The notes beneath the pieces are model-generated. The model was not told where the DNA came from. It ran no database searches and worked only from the letters and a program-made list of their open reading frames with translations. From Thermoplasmatota archaeon (lineage in GTDB: Archaea > Thermoplasmatota > Thermoplasmata > UBA10834): a stretch of 64,000 nucleotides of DNA. The stretch lies in contig JAHIRF010000002.1 of assembly GCA_018818785.1 (NCBI GenBank), positions 124,001 to 188,000 of the forward strand. The letters are read 5' to 3'. Made by a program: the position numbers and the translations under genes. This document shows, in pieces, positions 10,756 to 53,245 of the stretch; the stretch's first letter is position 1; each line of letters starts with the position of its first letter.

Positions 10756-13700
10756 ATGCGTCAAGTAGACGAGAATTACTCCCCTGTCCAGCTTGAGAAA
10801 GGCATGAGGGAGCAGTGGGACCGTACCCGGATCTACGAGAAAGTCAAGAAGGCTCGCGAGTCAGGCAAGCCTTATTACTTCCTCGACGGCCCGCCCTATA
10901 CGACCGGCTCGATTCACATAGGTACTGCATGGAACAAGATACTGAAGGACACCTACATCAGGTTCCGGAGGATGCAAGGATTCCAGGTAAGGGACCAGCC
11001 AGGCTATGACATGCATGGGCTCCCCATCGAGGTGAAGGTAGAGCAATCCCTCGCCATGAAGAACAAGAAGGACATTGAAGAGCATGGCATAGACAAATTC
11101 GTGAACACATGCCGCGAGTTCGCTATCAAGTTCAAATCGAAGATGACCGACGAGTTCAAACTACTCGGTGTGTGGATGGACTGGGAGAGTCCATACCTCA
11201 CGGTCAACCCATCATACATGGGATCTGTCTGGTGGACACTCAAGCAGGCCCATGATAAGAAACTCTTGACGACGGACCTTAGGGTCCTTCCATGGTGCCC
11301 GCGTTGCGAGACGGCTCTTGCAGAGGCGGAGATAGAGTATTGGGATGAGGCTGATCCATCGATATACGTCAAGTTCCAGATCGAAGGGACGGACGATGAG
11401 TTTCTACTAATATGGACGACGACCCCCTGGACCATACCTGGAAACCTGGCCGCTGCCGTTCACCCCGAGTTCACATACGCGAAGGTATGGGTGAGACGGG
11501 GAGGGACTGAAGAGAAGCTGGTATTCCTCGAAGAGAAGGTAGAAGAGCTCAGGAATACAGCAGGCATCGAGGAGCTCAAGATTCTAGAGACGATGAAGGG
11601 AGCAGACTTACTGGGCTTGCATTACAGACACCCACTCGCCGATGTGGTGCCATACCAGCAGCAGATAAAGGGCGAATGGGTCCATGCTATTGTGCCGTCT
11701 GAAACGGTCACCGCCGAGAGCACTGGTATCGTTCATATAGCTCCAGGGCACGGTCCTGATGACTTCGACATAGGCATCGCGCACGATATCGAACCGTTCT
11801 CGCCCGTCGATGAGGCGGGGTCTTACACAGATGATGTGGGTGAGAGGTATGCCGGCAAGAGCGTCAAAGAATCAAATGACCTTATCAGATCAGATCTCGT
11901 CGACAGGGGTGCCATGTTCCATGAAGGGCAGATCACGCACAGATACGGGCACTGCTGGCGATGTAAGAGGCCGATCATATACAGGATAACCGAGCAATGG
12001 TTCCTGAAGGTCACCGACATAAAGGCGCAGCTCGAAGCTGCCAACGACCAGATCAAGTGGTATCCCGACTGGGCCGGCTCATCCAGGGAGAAGGACTGGA
12101 TAGCCAATGCAAGGGACTGGTGCATCAGCAGGCAGAGGTACTGGGGGACACCCGTTCCCATCTGGAGATGCGCATGCGGCAACGTCAAGGTGATCTCATC
12201 GATTGAGGAGCTCAAGTCTGGCCGAGGATACGTGGACGGTATGGATGTGCATCGCCCATGGATCGATAATATCACATTCGATTGCGAGAAGTGCGGGCAG
12301 ACGATGACCAGGACACCAGATGTTCTGGATGTCTGGTTCGACGCGGGAGTCTGTTCTTGGGCGTCCTTGGGATACCCAGCGAGCAAGGATGACTTCGATA
12401 AATGGTGGCCAAGCGAGTGGGTCACCGAGGCTCACGATCAGACCCGAGGCTGGTTCTACTCTCAGCTAGTGACGGGAGTTGTTGCATTCGGCAGATCACC
12501 ATACAATTCCGTTCTCATGCACGGATGGGCACTTACGCCCCAGGGAGAGGCCATGTCTAAGAGCGAAGGCACGGCAATAGACCCAATAGGTGCGGTGAAC
12601 ACACTTGGCGCCGACGCGCTGAGACTATATCTCCTGAAGGCCAACGCCCCTTGGGAGGACATTCTCTTCCAGACTGAGGGCGTCAAGGCGGCTAACAGGA
12701 TCATAAACATCTTCTGGAACGTCTACAAATTCGCAGTCCTGTACATGTCGATAGATAAATTCGACGAATCACAATGGCGGACCCAATCTCTCAGAGAGAC
12801 CTTCAGGCCAGAGGATCGATGGATGCTCTCCCGCATCGAGACGATGAAGAGGGACTTCACGCAGGCAATGGAGATATATGAGGTGCATCGAGCGGCGAGG
12901 ATACTCGAGGACTTCATAGTGACGGATCTCTCGCGATGGTACGTCAAGGTAGTGAGGGATAGACTCTGGAAGGAGGGGGATGACAGGGACAAGACCGCTG
13001 CGTTCAAAGTGCTGCACGAGGCGCTGTCAACATCTGCGACCATGCTCGCTCCAATAGCACCTCATGTTTGCGAAGCAATCTACACCAACCTCAACTCAAG
13101 GCCTGAGAGCGTGCACATGGTTCAATGGCCGACTCATGATCCAAGTTGGATCGATGAGGGTCTGGAAGAGGGCATGGACCTCGTAAGGGAGATATCCGAG
13201 GTGATCGCCCGCATGCGCCAGGAGGCGAATGTGAACCTCCGATGGCCCTTGAAGCGCATCATCATCAAACCGCAGAATGATGATGTCGCTGATGCGCTGA
13301 TACAGCTCAAGAATGTCATCCTGTCCCAGAACAACATCAAGGATATGCATGTCGTGCCGGTAGGTGAGGAATGGGACGAGATGGTCCTGAGCGTGGTTCC
13401 GAACCCCAACGCCATAGGGAAGGTCTATCGCCAGTGGTCGAGCAAGATCGCGGTTCTTCTCAAGAACAGGCCTGCGAAGTCGATCAAGGCCGGTATCGAC
13501 AAGGGCGAGTACTCACTCGGTATCGAGGGCCAACTCGTCAAGATCCTTCCGAACATGGTGTCCTTCACTTCGACGCTCCCACCAGATGTGGTCAGTGACG
13601 AGTTCTCCAAGGGTCTGTTCTATGTCGACCTCGAGGAGACCCCCGCGCTCGAAGCGGAGGGATTCGCGAGAGAGACCATCAGACGGATACAGCAGATGAG

Positions 13701-14880
13701 AAAGGACATGGGCCTCAACGTAGAGGAATTCATAAAGATAGAGATAGAGTGTTCGCGCAAGATCGAGAACGCCATAGAGACCTGGAAGGACCATATCTCA
13801 AGGGAGACCAGGGCCAAACGGCTCGAGGTCGCCAATTCTCCAAGAGGGGAATACATCGTCGAGTGGAATGTCTCGAATGAACAACTCCTGATAGGCATAA
13901 CCTCACTTAAGATGAAGAAGGCATTGGACGAGCTCGGAGCGATTCCTGGCATGACCGCCGAAAAGGCGCTCAAGATATTCGACCATGGCTACACTACGGT
14001 TGACGCCCTCAAGAACGCATCGATCGAAGACATAGCCTCGATCGATGGCATCACGAACGTCGATGGTAAGAAGATCCATGACCATCTAAATGGGGTCGTC
14101 CACACAGAACCAGCTCCTGCAGCACCGCCAGCCCCGAGTGTCGCGCAGGCTACTACGGACGTAGCAGCTGCCCCTCCCCCGAACGAATTCATCGAGCGAT
14201 TGAAAGCCGTTCCCGGCATGACAGCATCGCTGGCGGACGGATTGTACAGGGCAGGTTTCGTGTCCGAGGAATCCATCAGGAACGCTTCTGTGGACGATAT
14301 GATGAAGGTGGACGGAATAAGTCTCGATGTCGCAACCCAGTTATTGGACGCATCCATGAACCCTTCCGTTTCTGACGGAGCGGCTCAAGTAGCACCCAAG
14401 AAGATAGAGCCAGGCGTGAGCGATCTCGAAAGGTCGTTTTCATACCTTGTCGAAGAGGACAGGCCCGAGACATCGTACAGTCTGTTCGTAAGCGCGCTCA
14501 ATAAGGGCATGAAGGGATATTGTGTCACGAGGAATTATCCCGCGAAGATACGCACCAAATTCGACCTCAAGGATACGCCATTGGTTTGGCTCTCTAATGT
14601 AGGTCGCGAGAACGCCATCAGACCGAAGGACCTCGAGAAGCTGAGCGTCTCCCTGGAACAATTCCTCTCGCAACCGGGCGGGGGAATCGTGCTCCTGGAT
14701 GGTCTGGAGTATCTGATCACCAATAACAATTTCATAACCGTGTTGAGGCTGATACAATCCCTGAGGGATCAGGTCGCGATCAATCAATCCATACTCCTCA
14801 TGGCTGTGAACAAGTCGACACTTGAGAGCCATCAGCTCAATCTGCTGGAGCGAGAGGTGGACTACACCATAACTGGATGA
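10756..14880 (+). CDS. ileS: Isoleucyl-tRNA synthetase with C-terminal HhH-HhH-DUF835 extension
   Basis: A 1374-residue IleRS, about 320 residues longer than the usual archaeal enzyme. The class I core is intact: HIGT at residues 54-57, an editing (CP1) domain with TTPWTIPGN, and AMSKSEGT near residue 600. An anticodon-binding domain follows. From about residue 1056 two helix-hairpin-helix-like repeats appear (GAIPGMTAEKALKIFDHGY and AVPGMTASLADGLYRAGF), split by an Ala/Pro linker. The last 135 residues or so resemble DUF835, with IVLLDGLEYLITNNNF as the typical core strand and helix. The frame is unbroken. DUF835 is usually found in archaeal signalling or regulatory proteins, and its role on a synthetase is unknown. 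Confidence 0.93.
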   Translation: MRQVDENYSPVQLEKGMREQWDRTRIYEKVKKARESGKPYYFLDGPPYTTGSIHIGTAWNKILKDTYIRFRRMQGFQVRDQPGYDMHGLPIEVKVEQSLAMKNKKDIEEHGIDKFVNTCREFAIKFKSKMTDEFKLLGVWMDWESPYLTVNPSYMGSVWWTLKQAHDKKLLTTDLRVLPWCPRCETALAEAEIEYWDEADPSIYVKFQIEGTDDEFLLIWTTTPWTIPGNLAAAVHPEFTYAKVWVRRGGTEEKLVFLEEKVEELRNTAGIEELKILETMKGADLLGLHYRHPLADVVPYQQQIKGEWVHAIVPSETVTAESTGIVHIAPGHGPDDFDIGIAHDIEPFSPVDEAGSYTDDVGERYAGKSVKESNDLIRSDLVDRGAMFHEGQITHRYGHCWRCKRPIIYRITEQWFLKVTDIKAQLEAANDQIKWYPDWAGSSREKDWIANARDWCISRQRYWGTPVPIWRCACGNVKVISSIEELKSGRGYVDGMDVHRPWIDNITFDCEKCGQTMTRTPDVLDVWFDAGVCSWASLGYPASKDDFDKWWPSEWVTEAHDQTRGWFYSQLVTGVVAFGRSPYNSVLMHGWALTPQGEAMSKSEGTAIDPIGAVNTLGADALRLYLLKANAPWEDILFQTEGVKAANRIINIFWNVYKFAVLYMSIDKFDESQWRTQSLRETFRPEDRWMLSRIETMKRDFTQAMEIYEVHRAARILEDFIVTDLSRWYVKVVRDRLWKEGDDRDKTAAFKVLHEALSTSATMLAPIAPHVCEAIYTNLNSRPESVHMVQWPTHDPSWIDEGLEEGMDLVREISEVIARMRQEANVNLRWPLKRIIIKPQNDDVADALIQLKNVILSQNNIKDMHVVPVGEEWDEMVLSVVPNPNAIGKVYRQWSSKIAVLLKNRPAKSIKAGIDKGEYSLGIEGQLVKILPNMVSFTSTLPPDVVSDEFSKGLFYVDLEETPALEAEGFARETIRRIQQMRKDMGLNVEEFIKIEIECSRKIENAIETWKDHISRETRAKRLEVANSPRGEYIVEWNVSNEQLLIGITSLKMKKALDELGAIPGMTAEKALKIFDHGYTTVDALKNASIEDIASIDGITNVDGKKIHDHLNGVVHTEPAPAAPPAPSVAQATTDVAAAPPPNEFIERLKAVPGMTASLADGLYRAGFVSEESIRNASVDDMMKVDGISLDVATQLLDASMNPSVSDGAAQVAPKKIEPGVSDLERSFSYLVEEDRPETSYSLFVSALNKGMKGYCVTRNYPAKIRTKFDLKDTPLVWLSNVGRENAIRPKDLEKLSVSLEQFLSQPGGGIVLLDGLEYLITNNNFITVLRLIQSLRDQVAINQSILLMAVNKSTLESHQLNLLEREVDYTITG

Positions 14881-14886
14881 GCCTGC

Positions 14887-15666
14887 TCAGGACAGCAGTT
14901 TGCAGACGATCTTCTGCAATCCGGGGACTGTGGGGAATCTTCCGACATCCTCGGGAGATACCCATTCATATCCTTGGTGTTCCCAATCTATCGATACCTG
15001 TGGATCGCGCACATCGAACAGGAATGAGTGTACGGTCCACACGACGTCGCCGTCTCTGAAGCTCTGAGGGTCGATCGAGCGTGCCATGCGGGCGTTCTTC
15101 AAACTGACTTCCTCTTCGAGTTCACGTTTTGCGGCAACCTTCGGAGCCTCTCCCGGCTCTATGAACCCAGAAACTCCGGCCCATAGTCCGCGATAGGAAC
15201 CGACCTCGAGGCTCCTCTGCAACAGGAGTATCTTCCCTTTGTGCCTGAGAATGTTGGTGACGACCTGTTTCTCCTCCACATTCCTCAATTCGAGAGTCCC
15301 TGACTCTGCATCGACTATGGCCTTGTCCGATGTCCTCAAGAGGGATACGTCGATGCCATCTATCATCGGTATGCCCGCGATTATCGCACCCGTCGCCACA
15401 ATAGGCTCCGCGATTGTATTGACTATAGCAGCTGGAGACGCATTCAGGATCTTGAGCTGATACATAGAATAGGAGCCGACCGTGCTGCCTTTACCATATG
15501 GGAATGCCAGGACGGTCTTCGAGACGCTCTTGCCCCTGCACTCGCATTCTGGATCGAGGATCCGGCCAGTCTTGGGGTCCACTCCTCCCAGGAATGAGAG
15601 TGGGATGCTGCTGGCCAGTACGGCGCCCTTTGCCATGCCGGCTCTGATGCACCTTCCCTTTATTAT
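14887..15666 (-). CDS. Phosphomevalonate dehydratase small subunit (AcnX swivel domain) fused to a Nudix hydrolase domain
   Basis: About 259 residues. The N-terminal 130 or so match the aconitase-X small subunit (DUF126): PLSFLGGVDPKTGRI, the loop FPYGKGSTVGSYSMY and the IAGIPMIDGID core. In archaea this domain pairs with the AcnX large subunit in the modified mevalonate pathway, making trans-anhydromevalonate 5-phosphate. The C-terminal half is a Nudix domain whose box GFIEPGE(x7)RELEEEVSL keeps all catalytic glutamates, with Ser for the last Gly. The start is problematic. No ATG, GTG or TTG lies near the domain start, yet GGAGG sits at 15677-15681, just before in-frame ATC, ATA and ATA codons (15672-15661). 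The first in-frame ATG (15636) would remove the first strand. Confidence 0.82.
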   Translation of the reverse strand: MIKGRCIRAGMAKGAVLASSIPLSFLGGVDPKTGRILDPECECRGKSVSKTVLAFPYGKGSTVGSYSMYQLKILNASPAAIVNTIAEPIVATGAIIAGIPMIDGIDVSLLRTSDKAIVDAESGTLELRNVEEKQVVTNILRHKGKILLLQRSLEVGSYRGLWAGVSGFIEPGEAPKVAAKRELEEEVSLKNARMARSIDPQSFRDGDVVWTVHSFLFDVRDPQVSIDWEHQGYEWVSPEDVGRFPTVPGLQKIVCKLLS

Positions 15667-16832
15667 CGTGATATCGCCTCCAGGAGTTGGTCCGTGGTTC
15701 TGAATGTCGCCCTCTGTTTCCCAAGGGTCGGCAGATATACCATGGCCTTGCCTGAGTCTGAGGCCGTCCTCTTGAACATCTTCTCGATCGGCGCGACCAC
15801 CATGCATGTATCGCATAGCACTTTGCCGAACCGCTTCAAGGTCTTGACTGCGTCAGGTGCGTTGGCATATGCTTTGCGCGAAGTGCAGAACCAGACGTTG
15901 CAGTCCTTTCGAGGGCGCTTTCCGTCCAGAGTACGAGCCATCCTGCGCAACTCCTGAGTGGAACAGTGGGGGCATCCTATCGCCACCAGGTCCCATGAAT
16001 CATCGCCAGAGAGAGAATCCTGGCATTCCTTCAATTCGGATTCAGGAAGCGAAACACATTCCTCTATCCTGCTTGTATCAATCTTCGATCTGACACCTGG
16101 TCTTCCGTAGAGATACATCGATACTGCACTCGTAGCGGCCATTGCGGCACCGAAGGATTTGTGTTCATCATTCGTCAAAGTAAGGTTAGTGATGTAGGGT
16201 ATCCTGTTGCCAGCTATCCTGCCGACGACATAACCCAGCAACGGCACAGAGCCTTGAGGTATCGATTCCACATCTATCTGCACGCTGGGAAGTCTGTTCT
16301 CGATGAGATGCAGCCCGTACTCGGCTGTCTTGCCGATGACGGCAGCTGCCAATGCAGAAGGCCCACCCTCTCTGTTGGTCAACGCCCCTAATACGGAGTT
16401 CGCGAATACCGTAGCGGACGACTCTGCCCACGCGATATGTTGTCCGGCCCGGGGTCGATTGCCTGCCAAATAGGGCGTGCAACTGTATAATGGTTCAAGG
16501 CCCATCGAAGCATATGCTCTGACGATCCTCATCTGCTTCTCCTTGAATCTCTCGTCGATACCCATCGATCGCCATCTCAACACATCCATGCCCAAAGGGT
16601 TGACGGAAGCCCTCACTGAAACATGTGCCTCTGACGAGAAATCCTCGATGAACTTTATTCCCGCATCCCCGACCGTCTTGAATGACGCTCCCGAGACCTG
16701 GGCCGATGATATCGGGACGAGTCTCTTCGCGCCATAGATATCACCTAGAGCGACCAGAAGCTCTATCGCCTTCTGTCTCCCGAACCCTTCCTCGCCTTTC
16801 AGAATCCGCTCTTCCTTCGAAGTGAGATGCAT
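15663..16832 (-). CDS. Phosphomevalonate dehydratase large subunit (aconitase X type)
   Basis: A 389-residue AcnX catalytic subunit that dehydrates 5-phosphomevalonate in the archaeal mevalonate pathway. The N-terminus has LTSKEERILKGEEG, followed by the substrate-binding segments QVSGASFKTVGDAG and TPYLAGNRP. Iron-sulfur cysteines are visible in IGCPHCST, WFCTSRKAY and LCDTCMVV. A TATA-like ATTATACTGG about 25 bases before the ATG suggests an almost leaderless message. Its TAA stop lies within the ATAATAAAG that begins the small-subunit frame, so the two are closely coupled. Confidence 0.88.
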   Translation of the reverse strand: MHLTSKEERILKGEEGFGRQKAIELLVALGDIYGAKRLVPISSAQVSGASFKTVGDAGIKFIEDFSSEAHVSVRASVNPLGMDVLRWRSMGIDERFKEKQMRIVRAYASMGLEPLYSCTPYLAGNRPRAGQHIAWAESSATVFANSVLGALTNREGGPSALAAAVIGKTAEYGLHLIENRLPSVQIDVESIPQGSVPLLGYVVGRIAGNRIPYITNLTLTNDEHKSFGAAMAATSAVSMYLYGRPGVRSKIDTSRIEECVSLPESELKECQDSLSGDDSWDLVAIGCPHCSTQELRRMARTLDGKRPRKDCNVWFCTSRKAYANAPDAVKTLKRFGKVLCDTCMVVAPIEKMFKRTASDSGKAMVYLPTLGKQRATFRTTDQLLEAISR

Positions 16833-52920: not shown

Positions 52921-53245
52921 CGAGTCGCTAGGCTTGACCGGGACGTTCGGCGTGTCCTTATACACCAAAATCGTCGACAGTGGGGGTGACAGCTGGGGAC
53001 GTCGTAACCGAACCGGCGCCAGTCCAGAAGCCGACAGTGAGGCCCTGTCCGATGGGGTTGAAGGGGGCTATATGCTCCTGCCGGAGGGCGGGGGTGTGTG
53101 CCTTTGTCGCGGAGATCGGGTCAGGCCCTGACGGGAGCAGCCTTACCGCGAACTATCAACGCTCACCGGGAAGCGGGACCGAGGAGGTTTCTGGGTCGCT
53201 GGCGCATGGAGAGGCCGGCAACCCCAGTGGCCTAGCACTCCTCCT
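52921..53245 (+). ncRNA. ffs: Signal recognition particle 7S RNA
   Basis: About 320 bases, normal for archaeal SRP RNA. Helix 1 closes the ends: GAGT-C-GCTAGGC (52922 on) with GCCTAGCACTC (53230-53240). The helix 8 S-domain has GTCAGG-CCC (53120-53128), tetraloop TGAC and GGG-AGCAGCC, the SRP54-binding core with its asymmetric AGCA loop. The 5' Alu-type region has GGGACGTTCGGCGTGTCC. Termination is probably at the CTCCTTTTCTC run. The tetraloop is of the URRC type instead of the common GNAR. Confidence 0.92.

Follow-up and report, generated by a model that had tools for sequence, protein, structure and literature searches.

The window, a stretch of 64,000 nucleotides from a Thermoplasmatota archaeon, contains ileS as a single uninterrupted frame of 1374 aa, encoding an archaeal-type isoleucyl-tRNA synthetase (IleRS) with a C-terminal extension of two helix-hairpin-helix (HhH) domains and a DUF835 domain. 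The TIGR00392 ileS profile matched aa 5-846 with 952.6 bits against a cut-off of 621.4, and the extension occupied aa 1056-1374 (nt 13921-14877). The features of the gene and of its downstream neighbours were as follows; pseudo-IleRSs are relatives with lost catalytic signatures, described below.

10756-14880 (+): ileS, archaeal-type isoleucyl-tRNA synthetase with HhH-HhH-DUF835 (1374 aa; TIGR00392, Pfam)
10807-12645 (+): class I catalytic domain with CP1 editing insert, intact (aa 18-630; PF00133 tRNA-synt_1, 405 bits)
10915-10926 (+): HIGT (aa 54-57), a signature of the HIGH type; 31/31 intact extended IleRSs have the H and G of HxGx
12553-12564 (+): MSKS (aa 600-603), a signature of the KMSKS type; found in 31/31 intact extended IleRSs and 0/20 pseudo-IleRSs
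12814-13260 (+): anticodon-binding domain Anticodon_1 (aa 687-835; PF08264, 124 bits)
13315-13902 (+): DUF5915, IleRS C-terminal domain (aa 854-1049; PF19302, 74.5 bits)
13375-13590 (+): conserved core of DUF5915 (aa 874-945, PNPNAIGKVYRQWSSKIAVLLKNRPAK..GEYSLGIEGQ), from the sequence comparison of IleRS groups
13927-14088 (+): helix-hairpin-helix domain 1 (aa 1058-1111; best stretch of PF14520 HHH_5)
14089-14196 (+): Pro/Ala-rich linker, from sequence; AlphaFold pLDDT <50 at model residues 268-292
14197-14355 (+): helix-hairpin-helix domain 2 (aa ~1148-1200; second stretch of PF14520/PF00633, helices in the AlphaFold model)
14467-14856 (+): DUF835 (aa 1238-1367), KaiC/ArlH-like RecA fold without Walker A (PF05763, 119.3 bits against a gathering cut-off of 33.1)
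14887-15816 (-): AcnX swivel domain fused to a NUDIX domain, neighbour of ileS (domain match)
15663-16832 (-): large aconitase X gene, adjoining the AcnX swivel-NUDIX gene (domain match)

The window also held an archaeal SRP RNA gene at 52926-53237 (+) (Rfam RF01857, 166.8 bits).

An earlier sequence-only reading of this DNA had described a continuous frame with a complete synthetase core and a true fusion of about 320 extra residues. Both points were borne out by the profile score, by the presence of HIGT and MSKS, and by the recurrence of the fusion in independently assembled relatives; profile searches, through which it had seen a possible refutation, identified the extension as HHH_5 twice plus DUF835. 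Archaeal-type IleRSs of the outgroup likewise showed the H and G of HxGx together with MSKS. Given its intact motifs, and as sister families yielded no IleRS other than the extended type, the window IleRS presumably charges tRNA(Ile).

The distribution of the extension was then determined, with families designated by arbitrary codes, f1 being the family of the window organism. In a search of 60 relatives, the same C-terminus was found throughout f1 and across many further families of the class, with named matches from Thermoplasmata and Methanomassiliicoccales, including Methanomassiliicoccus sp. In an ileS-profile survey of 200 genomes of the class, IleRS frames of approximately 980-1080 aa occurred in some families, and frames of 1240-1740 aa in other families. 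No IleRS frame longer than 1206 aa was found outside the class, with 145 genomes sampled in the phylum, and in two long DUF835 frames from outside it (G203, G214) the sequence read upstream of the domain contained no IleRS. The search for the same architecture suggested by the sequence-only reading thus found it in more than 12 Thermoplasmata families and not in the other archaea surveyed. Misassembly, named there as a finding that would overturn the claim, was rejected, as the fusion is conserved in independent genomes, with the extension 41-85% identical among relatives. A misassembly, a chance occurrence, or a recent neutral fusion can be dismissed when the same fusion, strongly conserved, appears in independent assemblies of many families.

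Domain scans recovered IleRS with DUF835 in f3, f5, f15, f16, f20, and f29, where the spacers differed; DUF835 was preceded by HhH domains, by zinc ribbons or, in f17, by a TPR-like repeat. In the f5 and f16 members, domain scanning gave no HhH match and a zinc ribbon stood there instead; consequently, HhH is not the essential element. Moreover, identity of the HhH domains between families was only 0.28 and 0.25. The HhH pair was accordingly rejected as the main element, and the weight placed on these repeats in the sequence-only reading was not sustained.

The structure prediction proposed for the extension was carried out with AlphaFold2. For aa 850-1374, with 41 sequences, a mean pLDDT of 87.5 and a pTM of 0.44 were obtained, with confident domains and flexible linkers; given this pTM, no docking between the domains is predicted. 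DUF835 alone reached a pLDDT of 91.1 and a pTM of 0.85. The best structural match of this model was FlaH/ArlH (4yds; Z 14.9, 153 residues, rmsd 3.4), followed by KaiC (8dba; Z 14.7, 142 residues, rmsd 2.6), and a Walker A motif GxxxxGK[ST] was present in 0/51 rows. On the basis of the model, DUF835 is a KaiC relative by fold and not an ATPase of the KaiC/ArlH family. The HhH pair with DUF835 might also be taken for a RadA-like DNA-binding module that connects IleRS with the chromosome or with repair, since Foldseek aligned HhH plus DUF835 with RadA/Rad51 (E 2.5e-6) and the HHH_5 matches resembled the N-terminal domains of RadA and eL32. However, RadA/Rad51 proteins combine HhH with a RecA core carrying a P-loop, which is missing here, and DUF835 alone is closest to KaiC/ArlH. 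With the low conservation of HhH between families and its replacement by a zinc ribbon in f5 and f16 members, this explanation was considered very improbable.

In archaeal two-component proteins, DUF835 has been classed as an inactivated KaiC (PMC5847659), and architectures such as REC-DUF835 and REC-PAS-PAS-DUF835 agree with the earlier statement that the domain is mostly seen in archaeal regulators (PMC5847659). Elsewhere, DUF835 was partnered with REC, V4R, 7TM-like, and coiled-coil parts. There were 14 DUF835 matches in the genome of the window organism, of which only that in ileS was found to be fused to a synthetase, and a limited literature search found no link between DUF835 and a synthetase. 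Two other DUF835 genes of this genome are recorded here. One encodes an archaeal protein in which a DnaA AAA+ domain of the bacterial type (PF00308, E 6e-50) is combined with DUF835 at the end of the chain (L039:1317-3728 +, G000:C12). A 1624-aa protein encoded about 27 kb upstream of ileS (L133:502-5373 +, G000:C9) has DUF835 near its N-terminus, with a very long, coiled-coil-like region after it; its DUF835 is the best match in the genome to that of IleRS (49%), and in several f1 genomes a gene of this type lies at a similar distance of 27-30 kb from ileS.

Two types of IleRS were distinguished within the class. The long proteins were of the archaeal type, with the signature GPPYTTGxIHxGT, while the short IleRSs of f4, f7, f12, f14, f17, f18, f22, f25, f26, and f28 carried the GPPTANGxPHIGH-like signatures of IleRS2; the short IleRS of f25 matched P. 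megaterium IleRS2 with 899 bits. In f4, f7, f12, f17, f22, f25, and f28, the extended archaeal-type protein occurred alongside IleRS2 and had lost its catalytic signatures. Among these pseudo-IleRSs (n = 20, seven families), a MSKS-like motif was found in 0/20 and a complete HIGH only in two f25 sequences, whereas the MSKS-like motif was present in 31/31 intact extended, 10/10 extension-less archaeal-type, and 4/4 outgroup IleRSs; a control for misalignment was performed. Because the motifs are lost, the pseudo-IleRSs presumably have no charging activity, and the genomes with a pseudo-IleRS had an intact IleRS2. These 20 relatives, unlike the window protein, thus show what defines a pseudo-aminoacyl-tRNA synthetase: a synthetase body with lost signatures and a retained frame. 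They were open frames of 1310-1825 aa with clear homology to synthetase domains, and their dN was low against a saturated dS, so that dN/dS of pairs is only rough. Plain pseudogenes were rejected in view of the long open frames, the low dN, and the conservation of the C-terminal module described below.

The f12 pseudo-ileS was flanked by neighbours of the window ileS, namely a gene for a DUF359 protein and, as judged by eye, Rpb7/S1-like and membrane-pyrophosphatase-like genes. These shared flanks point to the same gene in place, and the f12 copy is therefore most likely the ancestral gene, with catalysis lost in situ. As for the number of such losses, two groups were seen in the module tree, where a single clade was not rejected (p-AU 0.099); trees of the catalytic domain were distorted by long branches. 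In f2, f3, f5, f9, f11, f13, f15, f16, f20, f23, f27, and f29, the archaeal-type IleRS was the only IleRS found in the genomes checked, and it carried the extension except in G159 of f29. A second, IleRS2-like IleRS in an f19 genome (L292, G043:C27:100751-103333) had GVHH in place of HIGH, a non-canonical IleRS2 signature tied to mupirocin hyper-resistance (PMC10485003).

To compare the parts of the protein, 65 sequences were scored by identity to the extended-IleRS consensus over the catalytic region, the DUF5915 core (aa 874-945), and DUF835, in that order. The intact extended IleRSs (n = 31) scored 0.83, 0.83, and 0.82, and the pseudo-IleRSs (n = 20) 0.44, 0.70, and 0.70. For archaeal-type IleRSs without the extension (n = 10), the values were 0.79 and 0.13 with DUF835 absent, and for outgroup archaea (n = 4) they were 0.80 and 0.26, again with DUF835 absent. 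In a sliding profile of the most degenerate pseudo-IleRSs against the intact ones, retention was 0.20-0.55 in most catalytic windows, with three at 0.65-0.79, and reached 0.74-0.94 at aa 871-960, 0.93-1.04 at aa 1021-1080, and 0.73-0.85 over DUF835. The constraint that survived the loss of catalysis thus mapped to aa 871-960, 1021-1080, and 1225-1350. Extension-less members of f6 had the DUF5915 core deleted outright, while the f6 member with the extension (G130) retained it; in f21 and G159, which are without the extension, the core was present but diverged. The extension seems to have been lost three separate times (in f6, f21, and G159), each time with loss or decay of the core. The exceptions were the f4 pseudo-IleRSs, with a diverged DUF835 (0.26 of consensus) and a kept core (0.88), and f17, with a kept DUF835 and a diverged core (0.43), indicating that the two parts are not perfectly coupled.

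Judged by sequence conservation, the conserved unit is the DUF5915 segment (aa ~871-960) plus DUF835, and not the HhH pair. As delimited by the same alignments, the module comprises the DUF5915 core (aa ~871-960), a junction (aa ~1021-1080), and DUF835 (aa 1228-1370), with HhH or zinc-ribbon spacers joining the parts. DUF5915, counted as ordinary synthetase in the sequence-only reading, has therefore to be divided, as the segment at aa ~871-960 appears to belong functionally with the extension. The comparison shows that the parts of the module largely evolve together, that their evolution is independent of that of the catalytic domain, and that constraint on them persists after catalysis is lost. 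Owing to this double dissociation of catalytic region and module, the extended IleRS very probably has a second, non-charging function as such.

An ordinary accessory domain for tRNA binding or stability, supporting charging in cis in the manner of the domains appended to eukaryotic synthetases, would fit the correspondence of the DUF5915 region with the C-terminal tRNA-binding domain of the IleRS2 structure 8c8v, and HhH domains can bind nucleic acids. However, the extension was retained in the 20 relatives without KMSKS and was dispensable in f6, f21, and G159, whose only IleRS found was an intact archaeal-type enzyme without it. Moreover, we know of no RNA-binding role for DUF835, and this explanation was regarded as unlikely. 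The earlier suggestion that the extension could tether the synthetase, sense a signal, or regulate isoleucine charging thus held in kind, because the module is kept by IleRS relatives without charging motifs; regulation of charging did not hold as the main role, because extension-less IleRSs work alone elsewhere and dead IleRSs retain the extension.

The window family presented the mirror image. All f1 genomes searched had an IleRS2 or a fragment of one. The IleRS2 of the window organism itself (G000:C12:148574-151717; L253:2075-5224 +) had HFGD in place of HIGH and KMRNV in place of KMSKS, and its editing site was altered. Across the f1 copies, KMSKS was lost in 14/14, HIGH was altered in 8/14, and the editing-site motif was changed in most. 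Pairs of f1 IleRS2 gave a dN/dS of 0.12-0.19, as expected of constrained proteins under purifying selection. Judged from these motifs, charging in f1 most likely falls to the extended IleRS, and it is IleRS2 that has been altered.

This arrangement could suggest a two-subunit IleRS, a heteromer of the extended protein with IleRS2 in which one subunit is catalytic and the other structural or tRNA-presenting, the extension being the contact surface. Wherever both types were found in the families checked, one was degenerate, namely the extended IleRS in f4, f7, f12, f17, f22, f25, and f28 and IleRS2 in all 14 f1 copies examined, the latter being itself under purifying selection. However, the module was well conserved in twelve families with no IleRS2 found in the genome, IleRS2 carried no complementary extension, and loss of redundancy after the gain of a second IleRS explains the same pattern. 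A heteromer was accordingly given a low probability.

Regarding the gene neighbourhood, aconitase-X genes adjoined ileS in f1, f2, f15, f19, f20, f27, and f29. A tandem winged-HTH protein (~355 aa, HTH_24/TrmB/MarR-like) was encoded convergently, 3-167 bp from the 3' end of ileS, in f11, f13, f16, and f19 with intact IleRS and in f12 and f17 with pseudo-IleRS. This gene is convergent and not co-transcribed, and it was not beside ileS in f1 (the window), f15, f20, f27, f29, and others; being common to active and dead forms, its product is a candidate partner, no more. Directly downstream of pseudo-ileS, a ketopantoate reductase gene lay on the same strand in three f7 genomes (L242:2424-3335, L243:6095-7027, L250:6258-7160); as it was seen only in f7, it was left out of the interpretation. 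In two f25 genomes, a coiled-coil-like protein with no family assigned was encoded at this position (L247:11649-12530).

Taken together, a bifunctional IleRS was considered the probable explanation, in which the module would be a non-catalytic interaction hub acting through DUF835, with the IleRS body as input and a regulatory output. The P-loop-less KaiC/ArlH-type RecA domain would anchor the protein, whether synthetase or pseudo-synthetase, in an assembly with other proteins. There, either the IleRS body or the half of it that binds tRNA(Ile) would report the state of isoleucine or tRNA(Ile), and the output of this assembly would be regulatory. In the window organism, the same polypeptide would still perform charging. 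We infer an assembly or signalling role for this hub, perhaps with the neighbouring tandem winged-HTH regulator. A more elaborate version, possible though doubtful, would place IleRS at the core of KaiC-like signalling, with a BCAA or tRNA(Ile) sensor acting via DUF835 on a transcription regulator; after IleRS2 was acquired, the old enzyme would have given up catalysis and become a dedicated sensor in several families, while in f1 the newcomer would have been silenced.

That tRNA synthetases can have second functions is well established for eukaryotes, whereas such roles are difficult to establish in archaea. The comparison reported here separates the charging from the non-charging parts of one protein and points to the residues of each, with natural separation-of-function versions available as an active enzyme without the module and a module without an active enzyme. 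The active extended form is also present in records named Methanomassiliicoccus, and the system offers a direct route to the function of DUF835, a multi-copy domain in this genome.

Compared with DUF835 of archaeal two-component proteins (PMC5847659), that of IleRS belongs to the same domain family and has the same RecA/KaiC fold without Walker A; however, the domain usually sits on REC, PAS, or membrane sensor parts and here on a tRNA synthetase. Co-existing IleRS types are known as IleRS1/IleRS2 and as archaeal IleRS with IleRS2 in Lokiarchaeota (PMC4861432, PMC10485003), that is, two types per genome, including an archaeon, as here. In the bacterial pairs described, both enzymes are active and their co-existence is accounted for by mupirocin resistance (PMC4861432, PMC10485003), whereas here one has lost its catalytic motifs. 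HisZ and SLIMP are pseudo-synthetases serving as regulatory or partner subunits (PMC9437257), likewise synthetase bodies reused for regulation or partnering, but they are relatives of HisRS and SerRS from other lineages with no appended KaiC-like domain described. Similarly, LeuRS-I of Sulfolobaceae and LeuRS2 of Halobacteria are archaeal copies of a class I synthetase that charge little or not at all and are retained next to a functional enzyme (PMC9437257). These concern another amino acid, with no DUF835 or HhH module described, and, in contrast to them, the IleRS module also sits on a working and often single-copy enzyme.
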